Assembly (NCBI GenBank): GCA_018829465.1
Contig: JAHJTN010000007.1
Span: forward strand, 124,001 to 188,000
Length of the DNA: 64,000 nucleotides
Direction: 5' to 3'
Source: Bacteroidota bacterium
Lineage (GTDB): Bacteria; Bacteroidota; Bacteroidia; Flavobacteriales; Flavobacteriaceae
Made by a program: the position numbers and the translations under genes
Shown here: piece after piece, positions 52,200 through 60,009 of the stretch
How the letters are laid out: every line of letters starts with the position of its first letter
How positions within the stretch are numbered: the stretch's first letter is position 1
Notes under the pieces: generated by a model
The model's database searches: none
The model's input: only the letters and a program-made list of their open reading frames with translations
What the model was told of the DNA's origin: nothing

Positions 52200-54716
52200 A
52201 TGTTACGTCAGTTTACGTATGTGTGCTTTCTTTCACTGATAATTTTTCAATTTTCATTTGCTCAAAAACCATCAAAGCCCAATGCGTCAGATATTTACGA
52301 AGCCATTAAAAAGCTCAATTTCGTAGGTTCGGCGATGTTTGTGGCTGCCCATCCTGATGATGAAAATACACGACTTATTTCCTATTTGGCCAACAGCCTC
52401 AAAGCCCAAACGACTTATCTTTCTATCACACGTGGCGACGGTGGCCAAAACCTGATTGGGCCCGAATTGGGACCTTTCTTGGGCGCCATTCGCACCCAAG
52501 AATTGCTGGCAGCCCGACGCACAGACGGTGGCCAACAAATGTTTACACGCGCTGTTGATTTTGGTTATTCTAAACATCCGGACGAGACGTTCGCCATTTG
52601 GGACAAGCAAAAAATATTAGCAGATGTGGTTTTTGCCATTCGCAAACTTCGGCCCGATGTCATCATCAATAGGTTTGACCATCGGTCGCCCGGAACTACC
52701 CACGGACACCACACCGGCTCGGCTATGCTCAGTTACGAAGCTTTTAGTTTGGCCGGCAATCCTGATGCATTTCCGGAACAATTAGACCAAGTAGAGGTGT
52801 GGAAACCTCGAAGGATGTTCTTCAACACTTCCTGGTGGTTTTACGGCAGTCAAGAAAAATTTGAACAGGCCGATAAATCGGGCATCACCCAAGTAGAAGT
52901 TGGCAATTTTTATCCAAGTTTAGGGCTTTCAAACGGCGAAATAGCCTCTTTGAGCAGAAGCCAGCACAAGAGTCAAGGATTTGGCTCTACGGGGTCAAGG
53001 GGCGCCGAAACCGAATATTTAGAATTTATTAAAGGGCAGGCACCACGTCCCAAGTACAAAAACGACCTGTTTGATGGCATAGACACAGGTTGGGGAAGAC
53101 TTGCCAATGGCGAGGCTGTAAAAGAAGTGTTAGAATTAATTTTGATGCGCTTCGACCACCGCCAACCCGAGGCCAGCATTCCACTTTTATTGGATGCGCA
53201 AGTATTAATCAGCAAATTAAAAGATGACCACTGGCGCAGAATCAAATTGACGGAAATCAACGAAATTATAGCGGCTTGCTCGGGCTTGTTTTTAGAAGCG
53301 ATTGCACAGCGAGCATCGGCAGTGCCGGGTGAATCTATAAGCATCAATGTGGAGGCCATCAACCGTAGCGATTTCCCGGTCACCTTAAGTGGTTATAAAG
53401 TTTCATTGGCACAAAATAGCGAACTTCAAAATTTGCAACTCAATAACAATGTGTCTCACAAACTCGAAGCCACATTGACCATTCCAGAAAACACACCCTA
53501 CAGCAGTCCTTATTGGCTACAAAATGATAATGCATTGGGAATTTATACGGTTGAACAGCCTGAATGGATTGGTTTGCCGGAATCTCCCGCTGCGGCAACG
53601 GTCGATTTTTTACTTTCATTTGGTGGCAAATCGACTGTTTTGTTGCGCAGAGATGTGGTCTTTAAATCGAACTCGCGTGTAGATGGCGAGGTGTACGAGC
53701 CATTTGTGGTTTTACCGCCGGCTACCGTTGGGATTGATGAAAAAGTATGGATGTTTACCGAAAATACCGCACAAAAAATACCTGTAAAAGTAGTTTCCAA
53801 CCAACAAAATATTTCCGGCACGGTTCATTTGGATGCACCTGTGGGGTGGCAAATCAGTCCGGAAAGTTTTCCCTTCCAAGCAAAGGGTTTGGCAGAGACT
53901 TTTGAATTTACTGTAACACCGCCTTCCGGCGAATCTTCCGGGACTTTTCGCCCGTATGTATTGATAGGTGAAAAGCGCTACGCACTTGAAAAATTTGTCA
54001 TCGACTATCAGCATATTCCCAAGCAAACCATACTGATGCCGGCCGTTGCCCAAGTCAGTAAAACCAATTTAAAGAAAGCCGGACTTCGCATTGCGTATCT
54101 GCACGGAGCCGGCGATGACATTCCGCAAAGCTTGCGGCAAGTTGGCTATGAAGTCGTAGAGCTTAAGCCGGAGGAAATCATTTTGGAAAACCTGAGTCAG
54201 TTTGACGCTTTGGTCATAGGTATTCGTGCCTATAATGTACATGATCAGTTTGAAGCAAAACAAAAGGAAATACTTGCATATGTGTCGCAAGGTGGTACGG
54301 TGGTCACCCAGTACAACACCACAGGCGACCTAAAGTTGAAAGACTTTGCACCTTACCCATTGAAAATTTCTCGTGAACGGGTAACAGACGAGCAAGCTAC
54401 AGCCATCTTTTTGGCGCCCAATCATCCGGCACTCAATTATCCTAACAAAATCAGTGCTTCCGATTTTGACGGTTGGGTGCAAGAGCGCGGTTTGTATTTC
54501 CCGGACCAGTGGGATGCCGCTTACACGCCCATCCTTGGCTTGAAAGATCCGCAAGAAGCGGTTGAATTGCAAGGGGGACTCCTGGTAGCTAGCTATGGTA
54601 AAGGTTATTATGTCTATACAGGCCTAAGTTTTTTTAGGGAATTACCTGCCGGCGTACCGGGTGCTTTTAAATTGTTTGCAAATCTCTTAGCTTTGAGCCA
54701 AAATGGACAACCCTAG
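52200..54716 (+). CDS. Exported PIG-L-family deacetylase
   Basis: 838 residues. A signal peptide (to about residue 21) is followed by the LmbE/PIG-L domain: AAHPDDENTR and HGHHTGS supply the zinc ligands. Residues about 370-600 appear to be Ig-like or beta-rich, and the last 200 (LRIAYLHGAGDDIPQSLRQVGYEVVEL) resemble a glutamine-amidotransferase-like fold without a clear active site. PIG-L enzymes remove N-acetyl groups from amino sugars or N-acetylated glycoconjugates. The 36-residue gene overlaps its end, and a sodium symporter follows, suggesting uptake of a released product. Confidence 0.88.
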   Translation: MLRQFTYVCFLSLIIFQFSFAQKPSKPNASDIYEAIKKLNFVGSAMFVAAHPDDENTRLISYLANSLKAQTTYLSITRGDGGQNLIGPELGPFLGAIRTQELLAARRTDGGQQMFTRAVDFGYSKHPDETFAIWDKQKILADVVFAIRKLRPDVIINRFDHRSPGTTHGHHTGSAMLSYEAFSLAGNPDAFPEQLDQVEVWKPRRMFFNTSWWFYGSQEKFEQADKSGITQVEVGNFYPSLGLSNGEIASLSRSQHKSQGFGSTGSRGAETEYLEFIKGQAPRPKYKNDLFDGIDTGWGRLANGEAVKEVLELILMRFDHRQPEASIPLLLDAQVLISKLKDDHWRRIKLTEINEIIAACSGLFLEAIAQRASAVPGESISINVEAINRSDFPVTLSGYKVSLAQNSELQNLQLNNNVSHKLEATLTIPENTPYSSPYWLQNDNALGIYTVEQPEWIGLPESPAAATVDFLLSFGGKSTVLLRRDVVFKSNSRVDGEVYEPFVVLPPATVGIDEKVWMFTENTAQKIPVKVVSNQQNISGTVHLDAPVGWQISPESFPFQAKGLAETFEFTVTPPSGESSGTFRPYVLIGEKRYALEKFVIDYQHIPKQTILMPAVAQVSKTNLKKAGLRIAYLHGAGDDIPQSLRQVGYEVVELKPEEIILENLSQFDALVIGIRAYNVHDQFEAKQKEILAYVSQGGTVVTQYNTTGDLKLKDFAPYPLKISRERVTDEQATAIFLAPNHPALNYPNKISASDFDGWVQERGLYFPDQWDAAYTPILGLKDPQEAVELQGGLLVASYGKGYYVYTGLSFFRELPAGVPGAFKLFANLLALSQNGQP

Positions 54717-54813
54717 AAACGAACCTTCTTGGCGCAAATGGTATGTGATGATTCTAATCGCAAATCTGCTGTATTTTTTGGTTTTTATTTACCTGATGAA
54801 TTTATACGCCTGA
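54703..54813 (+). CDS. 36-residue single-helix membrane peptide
   Basis: The ATG at 54703 overlaps the end of the PIG-L gene by 14 bp and the TGA is one base before the symporter ATG at 54815. The peptide starts MDNPRNEPSWRKWYVM and then forms one hydrophobic helix (ILIANLLYFLVFIYLMNL). Its place between a deacetylase and a symporter, with overlap on the left and a one-base gap on the right, suggests a real, coupled gene: perhaps an accessory subunit of the symporter, as in the DUF4212/YhdT-type small partners of other sodium symporters. It is too short for most gene finders. Confidence 0.68.
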   Translation: MDNPRNEPSWRKWYVMILIANLLYFLVFIYLMNLYA

Positions 54814-54814
54814 T

Positions 54815-56515
54815 ATGCAGCTACTCGATTGGACAATATTGATAGGAACGCTCTCTTTTATAGTCTTTTACGGTTATTATAAATCCAAAGGCAGCAAGAA
54901 CGTAAAAGATTATTTGCTGGCCAATAATGAATCTAAATGGTGGACTGTGGGTTTGTCTGTAATGGCTACACAGGCTAGCGCGATTACCTTTTTATCTACG
55001 CCCGGACAAGCATTTCACGACGGAATGGGTTTTGTGCAATTTTATTTTGGGATGCCTTTGGCGATGGTCGTGATTTGTGTCACGTTTATTCCTATTTTTC
55101 ATAAATTAAAGGTTTATACGGCCTACGAATTTTTAGAAAACCGATTTGATTTAAAGACGCGTTCACTTGCCGCTATTTTGTTTTTGATACAAAGAGGTTT
55201 GGCAGCCGGTATAACCATTTATGCACCTGCCATTATTCTTTCGTCTATCTTGGGCTGGAACCTAAAAGTGTTGAATATCCTTATCGGAACCATGGTTATT
55301 ATTTACACCGTTTCGGGTGGCACCAAAGCCGTGAGCGTCACACAAAAACAACAAATGTTTGTCATTATGATGGGGATGTTTGCCGCTTTTTATTTTATTG
55401 TCAGTCAACTTCCCGAAGAAGTCAGTTTTGCAAACGCATTGCAGCTAGCCGGAGCAAGCGACAAAATGAAAATCATAGACTTTTCGTTTGATTTAGACAA
55501 CAGATATACCATTTGGTCGGGTACTTTGGGTGCTTTCTTTTTGTTTCTTTCGTACTTTGGTACAGACCAGTCTCAGGTGCAGCGATATTTGTCGGCAAAA
55601 TCTGTCAGGGAAAGTCGTATGGGCTTGCTTTTTAATGCAGCCATCAAAATACCCATGCAGTTTTTTATTCTGTTGGTGGGCGTGATGGTTTTTATCTTTT
55701 TTCAGTTTCAATCGGCACCTTTAAATTTTAGTCCTGCTGCCAATGAGGTGGTCAAAAGTTCTGAATACGCGCAGCAATATACAGATTTGGAATTGGTATA
55801 TGCAGGCATGCAGCGCAGGAAAATGGAACTCAATATGGATTATCTGCAAGCGATTGAGAACAATACGGATGACCGCAAAGCCTTGCAAAATACAATGGAG
55901 CAGATTACTACTAAAGAAAAACAGATTAGGGAAGAAGCCAAAGAGTTAATATCGGCCGCAAACAAATCAACAGAAACCAATGACAAGGATTATGTTTTTA
56001 TTTATTACATACTCAATTACCTCCCAAGTGGATTGATTGGTCTGCTTTTGGCCGTTATTTTTTCGGCAGCAATGTCTTCTACCGCATCCGAGTTAAATGC
56101 GTTGGCATCAACCACAGTGATGGATATTTACAAGAGAAATTTAAAAACAGAAAAGAGCGAAACCCATTATTTGAACGCCTCCAAATGGTTTACGGTGATG
56201 TGGGGATTGATTGCCATTCTCTTTGCCAGTTTTGGTACTTTGTTTGAAAACCTCATCCAATTCGTCAATATAGTAGGCTCTATCTTTTACGGCACCATAC
56301 TCGGTATCTTTTTAGTGGCTTTCTATGTGAAATCCATCAGGGGTGCATCTGTTTTTTGGGCAGCTTTGTTGTCTGAAATACTTGTGATAGCCGTATTTTT
56401 TCAAGACATCCTCAGCTATCTTTGGCTGAATGTTTTGGGCGTTTTTCTGACCGTTCTCATGGCATTTATATTGCAACAATTGAACAACTTCAGACACAGA
56501 CCACTCACGGCTTAA
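54815..56515 (+). CDS. Sodium:solute symporter
   Basis: 566 residues with about thirteen helices, SSS family. Landmarks are LLANNESKWWTVGLSVMATQASAITFLSTPG in the first helices and SAAMSSTASELNALASTTVMDIYKR, the Na2-site region. A charged, probably cytoplasmic loop lies near residues 310-385. The substrate is unknown; the position after PIG-L suggests an acetamido sugar, a deacetylated sugar or acetate. The ATG follows one base after the 36-residue gene. Confidence 0.9.
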   Translation: MQLLDWTILIGTLSFIVFYGYYKSKGSKNVKDYLLANNESKWWTVGLSVMATQASAITFLSTPGQAFHDGMGFVQFYFGMPLAMVVICVTFIPIFHKLKVYTAYEFLENRFDLKTRSLAAILFLIQRGLAAGITIYAPAIILSSILGWNLKVLNILIGTMVIIYTVSGGTKAVSVTQKQQMFVIMMGMFAAFYFIVSQLPEEVSFANALQLAGASDKMKIIDFSFDLDNRYTIWSGTLGAFFLFLSYFGTDQSQVQRYLSAKSVRESRMGLLFNAAIKIPMQFFILLVGVMVFIFFQFQSAPLNFSPAANEVVKSSEYAQQYTDLELVYAGMQRRKMELNMDYLQAIENNTDDRKALQNTMEQITTKEKQIREEAKELISAANKSTETNDKDYVFIYYILNYLPSGLIGLLLAVIFSAAMSSTASELNALASTTVMDIYKRNLKTEKSETHYLNASKWFTVMWGLIAILFASFGTLFENLIQFVNIVGSIFYGTILGIFLVAFYVKSIRGASVFWAALLSEILVIAVFFQDILSYLWLNVLGVFLTVLMAFILQQLNNFRHRPLTA

Positions 56516-56618: not shown

Positions 56619-59045
56619 ATGGTCCACAATAAGACTTTATTATTCTTCTGCTCAGGCAAAAGTTTTTGTATTTGCATGATTTTTTTTCTCATGCAAACCT
56701 TCCCTTTTTTTGCGCAAAACAAGCTTGAAAAACAAAATGGAATTATTGACCTCACCGGGCTCGATTTCAACAAAACCGAAGATGTAAGTTTGGAAGGCCA
56801 ATGGGAGTTTTATTGGAACGAACTCATACATCCACAAGATTTTATTCTCAAGCAAACGCCACATTACGAGGCGTTTCCAAAACTTTTTAATGACATAAAC
56901 GGGAATAGTTACGGCTACGCCACTTATCGTGTGATTTTGCAATTGCCGAAAAGCCATCCCGAATTGGCCTTGTATATTCCAGATTTTTACAGCTCCTATA
57001 AGTTGTTTGCCAACGGCAAAGTGATTTCGCAAAACGGAATGGTTGCAAAATCAAGAACCCTTTATCAGCCTAAATTTAAACCCACTACAGTACGTCTTCC
57101 TGCCGATACACCACAGGTTGAATTGGTGCTGCAAATTGCCAATTTTCACCATTACAGAGGCGGTGCAGCAAAGCCTATCTATTTAGGGTCTGAAAATTTT
57201 ATAACTAACCACCTAGCAAGCTCAAACGGGCTGATTTATTTGCTGGCAGGTATGGCCTTTGTTTGCGGCCTTTTTTTCATCAGCCTGTTTACCTTTAACA
57301 AGACAGACAGGGCTTCGTTTTATTTTGGACTTTTTTGCCTGTCTTCATCGCTGTATATTATGCTACGCGGCGAATATCTTTTGCTCAATTTTTTCCCCAA
57401 TTTACCTTGGCAATTGGTCACAAGACTCGAACATCTGAGCTTTTTCATAGGTGCTTTTCTGTTTATTCGCTTCGTGAAACACCTTTTTCCGAATAATGTT
57501 CACCCCCGAATCGTGTACGTCATTTCCGGCATCTCTCTTTTTTACACAGCACTGGCTTTGCTTTTGCCAATCTATATTTATACGGCTTTGACGCCTGTGT
57601 TTTTAGGAGTGATGATTTTAAATGTTTTGTATGTAAAATATGTTTTTTTGACTGCCATTTTAGAGAAGCGATTGGGAGCTGTTTTTGCGTTTGTTAGCGT
57701 AGCCCTTTTATCTGTCTCTATTTTATACATCATTTTTTATCATTTCGATTGGATAAGGCCCATTCCGTATGTTTATTTCACAGGACTTTTCGGTTCATTT
57801 ATTACCATGACACTCTTGATTTCTTATCGTTTTGCAGACACCATGACCAAGGCCAGAATCAAAGCAGAGACTGCCGTTGAAGCCAAAAGTCAGTTTTTGT
57901 CTAACATGAGCCATGAGATTAGAACCCCTTTAAATTCTGTAATTGCCCTAGCAGATTTGTTGCAGAATACAGATTCGGAAGAGGACAAAAAAGAATTTTT
58001 AGTGTCCATTAAAAAAAGCGGCGAAACCCTGTTGTCTATTATTAATGATATTTTAGACTACTCAAAAATAGAGGCCAACGAATTGATTATTAGACAAAAC
58101 AAGCTCAACATCAGGGACTTTCTCAGGGATGTGTATGCCATCAATAAACCCATTTGCAATGACAAATCGATCACTTTAAAACTTTTTATTGATGAAGAAG
58201 TACCGCATTGTGTGGTGACCGATGCAACACGTTTGCAACAAATACTCAACAACCTGATTGGCAACGCCATCAAATTTACCAAAGCGGGTAGTATAGAGAT
58301 TAAAGTGGAGCGCATACATAATGAAGCCATCCCGGGTAATTTAAAATTTAGCGTCATAGACACCGGTTCGGGCATCCAAGAGGATAAACTCCCATTGTTG
58401 TTTGAAAGATTTTCTCAAATAGAAGACCGCGAGTCTAAGAAACTTACAGGAACCGGGCTAGGTTTGGCCATTTCAAAACTTCTCTCCATAGCTTTGGGCG
58501 GTACCATCGATGTGTCTTCTGTTTGGGGAGAAGGATCTGTTTTTTGGTTTACCATCGCAGCACCCGAAGCTTGCAACAAAGAGTTTGAAGCTGAAAATGA
58601 GATGCTTGCAGCGATTCAACTGTCTAATCATATTTCTTTTTCATCTTTAAAAGTTCTTTTGGTAGAAGACAATAGCATGAATCGGCTTGTGGCCATCAAA
58701 GTGTTAGAAACCTTGGGCATATCAGATATTGAGATAGCCCATGACGGCCTTGAAGCTATTGATAAATGCGAAAAGCATTTTTACGATTTGATTTTTATGG
58801 ATATGGAAATGCCCAATATGGGCGGCGTAGAGGCGACAAAATACATTAGGCAATTGGTCAACCACGGCTATATCTCTAAAATTGTTGCCATGACAGCCAA
58901 CGTAACCGAAGATGACAAAGAAAACTGTTTGAATGCGGGCATGAACGACATCATTTTTAAACCCATTTCTAAAGAACGCATTGCTGCTGTGCTCAACAAA
59001 CTCTTTTCACACAAGCAAGATGAAAGAATCATCAGACAAAATTAA
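56619..59045 (+). CDS. 7TMR-DISM hybrid sensor histidine kinase
   Basis: 808 residues. A signal peptide, a periplasmic 7TMR-DISM extracellular domain (about residues 35-190, carbohydrate-binding-like jelly roll), seven membrane helices (about 200-405), HisKA with H432 (NMSHEIRTPLN), HATPase_c (NLIGNAIKFT, DTGSGI, GTGLGLAIS), and a receiver with D728 (FMDMEMPN). It senses an unknown, possibly sugar, ligand. Like the kinase at 4879 it has no output domain. Its last 26 bp overlap the Gfo/Idh start, an overlap that suggests co-expression. Confidence 0.9.
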   Translation: MVHNKTLLFFCSGKSFCICMIFFLMQTFPFFAQNKLEKQNGIIDLTGLDFNKTEDVSLEGQWEFYWNELIHPQDFILKQTPHYEAFPKLFNDINGNSYGYATYRVILQLPKSHPELALYIPDFYSSYKLFANGKVISQNGMVAKSRTLYQPKFKPTTVRLPADTPQVELVLQIANFHHYRGGAAKPIYLGSENFITNHLASSNGLIYLLAGMAFVCGLFFISLFTFNKTDRASFYFGLFCLSSSLYIMLRGEYLLLNFFPNLPWQLVTRLEHLSFFIGAFLFIRFVKHLFPNNVHPRIVYVISGISLFYTALALLLPIYIYTALTPVFLGVMILNVLYVKYVFLTAILEKRLGAVFAFVSVALLSVSILYIIFYHFDWIRPIPYVYFTGLFGSFITMTLLISYRFADTMTKARIKAETAVEAKSQFLSNMSHEIRTPLNSVIALADLLQNTDSEEDKKEFLVSIKKSGETLLSIINDILDYSKIEANELIIRQNKLNIRDFLRDVYAINKPICNDKSITLKLFIDEEVPHCVVTDATRLQQILNNLIGNAIKFTKAGSIEIKVERIHNEAIPGNLKFSVIDTGSGIQEDKLPLLFERFSQIEDRESKKLTGTGLGLAISKLLSIALGGTIDVSSVWGEGSVFWFTIAAPEACNKEFEAENEMLAAIQLSNHISFSSLKVLLVEDNSMNRLVAIKVLETLGISDIEIAHDGLEAIDKCEKHFYDLIFMDMEMPNMGGVEATKYIRQLVNHGYISKIVAMTANVTEDDKENCLNAGMNDIIFKPISKERIAAVLNKLFSHKQDERIIRQN

Positions 59046-60009
59046 TTGGGGCATTCTCGGACCGGGCAAAATAGCCACACTCTTTGCCGAAGATCTTCAA
59101 AAAGTACACGGTGCCCGACTCTATGCATGCGCTTCTACACAAATAGAAAGAGCTACTCAATTCGGCCAAACTTTTAATATCCCTTTCATGTATGGCAGTT
59201 ATGCAGAAATGCTCAACAACCCCGATTTAGATGTGGTGTACATTGCTACGCCACACGTTTTCCACTACCAAAATACCCTGCAATGCCTCAGAGCCGGAAA
59301 AGCAGTATTTTGCGAAAAGCCTTTTGCCATCAATACCGCTCAGGTAAAAGAAATGATTGAATTGGCCACGGAGAAGAATCTTTTTCTGATGGAAGCCATG
59401 TGGACGCGTTTTTTGCCGCATTTTCAGTTTGTTTTGGAGACGATTCGCGATCAAAAATTGGGTGCTTTGCGCGTTATGGAAGCAGACTTCGGTATCGATG
59501 TGCCCTTCGATGCTGCTTCGCGTATCTATAACAACATATTGGGCGGTGGTAGCCTTCTAGATTTAGGTATTTATCCGGTTTTTGCCGCTTTGATGTTTAT
59601 GGGAAAACCCGATGACATAAAGGCAAAAGCAACTTTGTCAAATACAAATGTAGATTTGGATTGTCAAATCACTTTTGATTACAGCGACGGTAGACAAGCC
59701 AAACTTTTCTCAGCCATCAACCTAGATACACCAACCACGGCCACGCTACATTTTGAACGTGGAAAAATCTTGATGAACAGCCGTTTTCACCAACCTACCA
59801 CAGTCACTGTAACGGACAAACACAGCTCAAAAACCCATGATTTCGGCTACACCACACATGGCTACTCCTACGAAGCACAACACGTGACAAACCGCTTGCT
59901 AAACCGTCAAAAAACGAGTGAACTCATGACACATAAACTGAGTGTACAGTTGATTTCTACGCTCGATGCCATCAGAAGTAAAATAGGACTCATTTACCCC
60001 CCGGACTAA
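59020..60009 (+). CDS. Gfo/Idh/MocA-family oxidoreductase
   Basis: 329 residues from the ATG at 59020 (MKESSDKINWGILGPGKIATLF), 26 bp inside the kinase gene; the longer frame would add 13 residues. The Rossmann motif GPGKIA and the catalytic FCEKPFA are present. These enzymes oxidise sugars, inositols or other alcohols with NAD(P); the substrate is unknown. Linkage to a sensor kinase may mean it is part of a sugar response. Confidence 0.9.
   Translation: MKESSDKINWGILGPGKIATLFAEDLQKVHGARLYACASTQIERATQFGQTFNIPFMYGSYAEMLNNPDLDVVYIATPHVFHYQNTLQCLRAGKAVFCEKPFAINTAQVKEMIELATEKNLFLMEAMWTRFLPHFQFVLETIRDQKLGALRVMEADFGIDVPFDAASRIYNNILGGGSLLDLGIYPVFAALMFMGKPDDIKAKATLSNTNVDLDCQITFDYSDGRQAKLFSAINLDTPTTATLHFERGKILMNSRFHQPTTVTVTDKHSSKTHDFGYTTHGYSYEAQHVTNRLLNRQKTSELMTHKLSVQLISTLDAIRSKIGLIYPPD

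Follow-up and report, generated by a model that had tools for sequence, protein, structure and literature searches.

A peptide gene between a PIG-L gene and a symporter gene

The analysed window, a stretch of 64,000 nucleotides from contig JAHJTN010000007.1 of a Bacteroidota assembly (GCA_018829465.1, positions 124,001 to 188,000), carries on its + strand a PIG-L family gene (52200..54716, 838 amino acids), a short open reading frame (ORF) for a 36-residue single-helix membrane peptide (54703..54813) and a gene for a sodium:solute symporter of the SSS/SLC5 family (54815..56515, 566 amino acids, about 13 transmembrane helices). The conservation of the short ORF and the selection acting on it lead us to propose that the peptide is an accessory subunit of the symporter. 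According to the ORF coordinates, the first 14 bases of the peptide gene are also the last 14 of the PIG-L gene (54703..54716), and a single base (54814) separates its stop codon from the symporter ATG at 54815. The initial annotation of this DNA had reported the same positions, 14-bp overlap and one-base gap, all of which are exact to the base in the ORF list.

The two larger genes are recognised by curated family models. The Pfam PIG-L model matches 52200-54716 with an E-value of 2.7e-12 (47.7 bits against a curated cut-off of 28.2), and the Pfam SSF model matches 54815-56515 with an E-value of 6.5e-41 (141 bits against 22.8), the latter gene also being matched by TIGR00813 of NCBIfam (7.2e-69; 232.8 bits against a cut-off of 184). 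Both these models and the predicted fold assign the product of 54815-56515 to the SSS/SLC5 symporters, with sodium-dependent uptake of a solute as its predicted activity. No Pfam or NCBIfam match was obtained for the peptide in the scan of the window's proteins.

Conservation and spread of the peptide

A short membrane frame occupies the same place in all 30 loci first examined, namely the window's own genome and 29 relatives, one of which (L022) has a GTG start and was identified by eye; the majority pattern in these loci is WKKxYTLVLxANxxYIxxFYLIMxxF. A profile was built from 56 peptides of loci L003-L099 and scored from -400 to +60 of the symporter start. The frame is not broken or absent in most relatives with this gene pair, the outcome that the initial annotation had named as adverse to its own proposal: ahead of the symporter gene, 222 of the 233 loci reach at least 10 bits on the profile, whereas none of 699 control windows drawn from the same DNA does, the best of them scoring 9.9 bits. 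This threshold is passed by 91 of the 97 training loci (L003-L099) and, outside the training, by 80 of 80 (L100-L179) and 51 of 56 loci (L222, L225-L279); the loci partly overlap, some of L100-L179 being identical or closely related to earlier ones, and some come from one genome or from close relatives. The sampling combined a phylum-wide spread with 80 named loci (Flavobacterium, Tenacibaculum, Polaribacter, Maribacter, Salinimicrobium and others). L096 and L269, where the peptide is visible by eye at less than 10 bits, were entered as misses, while L220, L221, L223 and L224 stand outside the 233, having no symporter match at E 1e-20. The peptide of L089, recognised by eye, scores 21.1 bits.

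The pooled proportions of nonsynonymous (pN) and synonymous (pS) differences were 0.098 and 0.564, giving a pN/pS of 0.17 over 93 peptide pairs of equal length and of nucleotide identity at least 72% and below 100%, pairs which share branches and are not independent. This ratio identifies the ORF product as a genuine protein whose amino-acid sequence is under selection. Members of its family are mostly 30-55 residues long with one helix, and the window's own genome holds a single copy, the next match having an E-value of 1.1. Relative to the symporter start, the stop codon lies between -15 and +14 in 210 of the 222 loci and between -3 and +4 in 181, and a stop at +4, which creates an ATGA overlap with the symporter start, occurs in 42. 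In L077, L078 and L079, another small hydrophobic frame, 53-65 residues long, lies between PIG-L and the peptide.

Among the matches listed, no Pfam, NCBIfam or PDB family claims the peptide. Scanning the 56 peptides against NCBIfam returned 15 families at E <=1, and neither TIGR03647 (DUF4212) nor MetS, both of which we take to be represented by NCBIfam models, was among these; in the corresponding Pfam scan, DUF485, DUF997, DUF3311 and DUF4212 were absent among the 25 listed of 34 families (E <=1). The profile compared with PDB sequences gave four matches up to E 10, none of them MAP17, a search of low power with only 37 positions. A literature search found nothing on this peptide-symporter pair, which is not proof of its absence from print, and the main text of the paper on the Pro-SMP finder holds neither the word symporter nor any word in Bacteroid- or Flavobacter- (PMC10903887). 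The earlier suggestion of a small symporter accessory subunit overlooked by family libraries gains support from this conservation and linkage.

With an E-value limit of 1e-60, the symporter is matched in 40 of the 60 close relatives searched and, phylum-wide, in 144 of 395 genomes; plasmid records gave no symporter match at E 1e-80. In whole-genome searches, the peptide profile had matches in 106 of 296 genomes, from 18 families of the phylum. By genome, 103 hold both genes, 12 the symporter only, one the peptide only and 180 neither, in a table that ignores shared ancestry and assumes the 296 genomes to be the handles up to G349 in the symporter sample. False matches in G140 and G232 were taken out before this count; they had been considered as natural peptide-symporter fusions and were rejected, the long frame being an unrelated 488-residue membrane protein. 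Four of the symporter-only genomes carry a divergent peptide, namely G139 (L268, 10.6 bits), G207 (L269, 7.7 bits), G262 (L270, 14.6 bits) and, by eye, G270 (L096). G166 has a partial symporter only, and G329, G313 and G333, whose loci were not fetched, belong to genera that include peptide carriers. In the peptide-only genome G085 (L224), a PIG-L gene (residues 201-832 matched) and the peptide are followed by a symporter remnant, consisting of the first symporter codons (by eye) and, shortly after, a piece of residues 501-541; the missing core may reflect a deletion or an assembly gap. G349 has two copies of the unit (L085, L086), with the same peptide, near opposite ends of one contig, and one of its two symporter copies has an internal stop; the double copy may come from the assembly, with the two ends of a circular chromosome overlapping.

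The peptide tracks the symporter, its constant companion, independently of PIG-L. Among the 222 peptide loci, 170 have a PIG-L gene that ends no more than 450 bases upstream and 7 have one further off, while 45 have no PIG-L match at E 1e-5 in the flank examined (1.5-9 kb; the remainder of the genome was not searched). With these loci, and with four genomes that hold PIG-L and the symporter but no peptide, the initial view of the three genes as one functional set finds no support in its original form.

In five genomes the peptide is found away from the symporter. G157 and G112 have nothing upstream of the symporter (1.4 and 2.4 bits) and a 38-residue family peptide about 15 kb away, between other genes and beside a transporter-like gene (named by eye); the coordinates of G096 and G084 indicate the same unlinked arrangement at about 15 kb, and the sole peptide match of G330 lies 108 kb from its symporter, the stretch before which was not fetched. 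Four of these genomes represent one genus, and perhaps one event, and G330 belongs to another family. Because these matches lie about 15 or 108 kb from the symporter, the peptide can act in trans, which is the strongest single point for regarding it as a subunit.

Conservation within the peptide has a helical pattern. Twenty-nine positions align with few gaps, and weighted conservation reaches 96% at Y14, 93% at W10, 86% at F28, 79% at V17, 74% at I25 and 50% at N21, with T/M32 and F/Y35 also conserved; the conserved helix face thus comprises W10, Y14, V/I17, N21, I/F25, F28, T/M32 and F/Y35. The conservation moment at 100 degrees has a p-value of 0.002, with a peak at 104 degrees, a periodicity which means that one face is held and the rest drifts. 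Such a face suggests a helix packed on a protein partner. Net charge averages +1.7 on the N side of the helix and +0.3 on the C side, a bias from which the positive-inside rule predicts an N-in topology with the C-terminus outside.

Candidate roles of the peptide

With so many ORFs of 30-40 amino acids in the window, the short frame might be a product of chance, a run of hydrophobic codons that persisted in a short spacer; this is refuted by the profile counts (222 of 233 loci, 0 of 699 controls) and by the pN/pS of 0.17, and its likelihood is practically negligible. The tight spacing, with stops from -3 to +4 in 181 of 222 loci and 42 ATGA overlaps, is what a cis-acting leader or translational coupler for the symporter start would display, the peptide itself being inert. 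Yet selection acts on the amino acids (the same pN/pS) and preserves a helix face, and such coupling cannot work in the five genomes where the peptide lies 15 or 108 kb from the symporter, so that a leader function appears quite improbable.

A PIG-L gene that ends at most 450 bases upstream, in the window as in 170 of 222 loci, could also mean that the peptide serves PIG-L as a membrane anchor or helper, the symporter being a neighbour through operon order only. We consider this very improbable, given the 45 loci without a PIG-L match in the flank examined and the loss of the peptide in L068, L091, L260 and L261, where PIG-L still abuts the symporter. The peptide might finally act on another membrane partner, such as a kinase, protease or insertase, with a regulatory reason for its co-inheritance with the symporter. 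Regulation of sensors or proteases is a common role of small membrane proteins, the window encodes a 7TMR-DISM hybrid histidine kinase downstream, and the unlinked peptides of G157 and G112 sit beside a transporter-like gene (by eye); however, this kinase does not figure in the 25 commonest neighbour groups listed for the 72 named loci, and co-occurrence across genomes makes the symporter the constant companion. Another partner is, in our estimation, unlikely.

We regard as probable that the peptide is a small accessory subunit of the symporter, to which it would bind. One message would carry the three genes in the order PIG-L, peptide, symporter, and their overlaps would favour similar dosage; the peptide would be translated immediately ahead of the symporter and would insert with its positive N-terminus in the cytoplasm and its C-terminus outside. 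The conserved face (W10, Y14, V17, N21, I25, F28, T/M32, F35) would then pack on the symporter, and the packed peptide could help the symporter to fold, to stay stable or to become active, in the manner of MAP17.

Several observations weigh against this proposal. The genome co-occurrence table takes no account of shared ancestry, and four genomes (G170, G192, G200, G218) keep the symporter and PIG-L without an adjacent peptide, which implies that the peptide is not indispensable everywhere. Peptide-less loci with PIG-L and symporter are L068 and, from one genus, L091, L260 and L261, the genus to which the peptide-only genome G085 also belongs; in all four loci the PIG-L gene reaches to the symporter start or to 18 bases from it, neither symporter end has an additional helix, and no similar frame was seen by eye within about 0.5 kb downstream. 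G218 has weak peptide-profile matches elsewhere in its genome (E 0.011 at best). The two symporter paralogues L061 and L062 (35-36% identity) are likewise without a peptide, as is L067 (44%). Coevolution did not locate a binding site in 220 peptide-symporter pairs (effective number 117), as the methods disagree with one another and with the controls: of the 30 strongest direct-coupling pairs, 9 involve symporter residues 504-562, against 3.1 expected; with entropy-binned scores this excess disappears (residues >=500 account for 7 of the 60 highest pairs); and mutual information points to helix 10, paired with peptide positions 21 and 24, a signal that for the most part reflects clade differences. 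These signals, spread or clade-driven, were rejected as evidence for a binding site, as was folding, since the fused model described below (with a predicted local distance difference test score, pLDDT, of 68.2) yields no readable docking site. For the animal pair, SGLT2 structures are reported to speak against a direct effect of MAP17 on activity (PMC10803289).

The symporter fold and its possible missing helix

The closest solved relatives of the symporter by sequence are the sialic acid symporter SiaT (5nv9), SMCT1, SMVT, NIS and vSGLT. Its fold was modelled on the orthologue of L165, as one chain of peptide, short linker and symporter; this fused model, the highest in pLDDT (44.6-59.3 for the others), was used for fold class only. 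It matches SMCT1 (Z 28.0; root mean square deviation 3.3 over 417 residues), NIS (27.9), SiaT (27.6) and vSGLT (26.3), with SGLT1/2 also high, and comprises 13 long membrane helices and a helical outer insert (helices 361-387 and 391-418). Alignment and model place the corresponding long insert of the window's symporter after the seventh core helix, at residues ~303-395 (55721..55999, + strand). These ~90 residues have a variable middle and a better conserved end (ETNDKDYVF in the window), with D390 invariant in 20 sequences and Y393 and F395 conserved in at least 90%.

The alignment of the orthologue model to SGLT1 and SGLT2 stops at chain residue ~554, and the model ends at its 13th helix. 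In hSGLT1, Q581 and E582 are described as lying in the loop IL6 (PMC9616851), which is stated for hSGLT2 to connect transmembrane helices 12 and 13 (TM12 and TM13; PMC10803289). The end of the alignment and the position of IL6 together imply that the bacterial symporter stops at the point beyond which animal SGLTs go on to form TM13. In the model, the combination of 13 helices in the symporter and one in a separate partner is suggestive of a possible parallel to TM13. The peptide could then be a fourteenth helix that has become detached, obligate as a subunit in most lineages, at the place of TM13 and MAP17 beside the scaffold helices, an extension of the subunit proposal that we hold tentatively and judge rather doubtful. 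We take the orientation of TM13 to match the N-in, C-out arrangement predicted for the peptide; that of MAP17 is opposite to the predicted N-in. If true, such a detached helix would be an ancient bacterial counterpart, present in 18 families, of the accessory-subunit principle of SGLTs.

Related small subunits, the PIG-L protein and neighbouring genes

Tiny transporter subunits are already known as a kind, and this peptide family is apparently new among them. Small proteins encoded beside SSS genes include YjcH/DUF485 with ActP, YhdT/DUF997 with PanF, DUF4212 (TIGR03647) and DUF3311, and those of DUF485, DUF997, DUF4212 and DUF3311 have two helices and 60-110 residues. The peptide resembles these proteins in being short, hydrophobic and encoded beside an SSS gene, but differs in its single helix and its length of mostly 30-55 residues. 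MetS is a very short single-helix small subunit of the sodium-coupled NSS transporter MetP, and hence likewise a tiny single-helix partner of a sodium-coupled transporter, although MetP comes from a different transporter family. The closest parallel in architecture concerns SGLT2-MAP17 (and SGLT1-MAP17), in which a single-helix auxiliary protein is paired with an SSS/SLC5 symporter; no sequence relation between peptide and MAP17 was found (in a profile search of low power), and MAP17 contacts the SGLT TM13, a helix that the bacterial symporter seems, from the model, to be without. MAP17 is described as needed by SGLT2 for transport and has been linked to stability and surface expression (PMC10803289, PMC9616851). 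In Pseudomonas fluorescens, a DUF485 protein and ActP are reported in one regulon (PMC5715377). AcrZ, a small Escherichia coli protein, is described as interacting with the membrane part of AcrB and altering the transporter's effect (PMC7267776); AcrB is an efflux pump of another superfamily, and no sequence relation to the peptide is claimed.

The symporter annotation is probably incomplete in many genomes of the phylum, and attempts to express these symporters in a foreign host may fail if the peptide is left out. Should the two proteins pair physically, they would provide a minimal bacterial system for single-helix control of an SLC5-type symporter, the same question that is under study on SGLT2-MAP17, SGLT2 being a diabetes drug target.

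The PIG-L protein was modelled by AlphaFold2 with a pLDDT of 89.3. It comprises a signal-like N-terminal helix, an MshB-like domain (~40-297), a beta-sandwich middle and a ThuA/GATase1-like end (~628-838), with structural matches to MshB (4ewl, Z 21.9 over 241 residues), STM3548 (2gk3, Z 17.4) and a ThuA-like protein (4pxy, Z 15.6). The AAHPDDEN motif at residues 49-56 (52344..52367, + strand), the metal-site motif of PIG-L enzymes, is invariant from A49, A50, H51, P52, D53, D54 and E55 to N56 in 52 sequences. NCBIfam equivalogs remain below their cut-offs (Mca 44.5 against 277.15, MshB 18.1 against 224.35 and BshB1 17.9 against 182.5). The protein shares its fold (Z ~18-22) and the AHPDDEN motif with MshB, BshB and diacetylchitobiose deacetylases; unlike them, it is probably exported, as its signal-like N-terminus, read by eye, indicates, and bears the beta-sandwich and the ThuA/GATase1-like C-terminal domain. 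It is likely to be an exported de-N-acylase or amidase acting on a sugar-type conjugate. Where adjacent, PIG-L most likely shares the pathway of the symporter, outside the pair formed by symporter and putative subunit. The release-and-import idea of the initial annotation is plausible in the form of an exported PIG-L that would free an acetylated sugar for the symporter: by fold, the PIG-L domain is closest to MshB and near the diacetylchitobiose deacetylases, and the symporter is nearest to SiaT, SMCT, NIS and SGLT structures. Gene order suggests that the symporter may take up the PIG-L product.

Neighbouring genes were grouped in the 72 named loci, mostly from Flavobacteriaceae, and point to no substrate. 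The commonest are PIG-L (62 loci) and a downstream convergent gene (51), followed by Maf-like (41) and MscS-like genes (36), both named by eye. Convergent genes downstream of the symporter encode DUF2911 proteins in L006 (635-1483) and L011 (580-1422), an identity established in these two loci and not for the group of 51. In the window, the 7TMR-DISM hybrid histidine kinase gene (56619-59045) lies 3' of the symporter on the same strand, as identified by Pfam. Pfam also identifies a Gfo/Idh/MocA oxidoreductase at 59035-60009, and a similar-looking oxidoreductase gene (by eye) is found 3' of the symporter in 9 of the 72 named loci.

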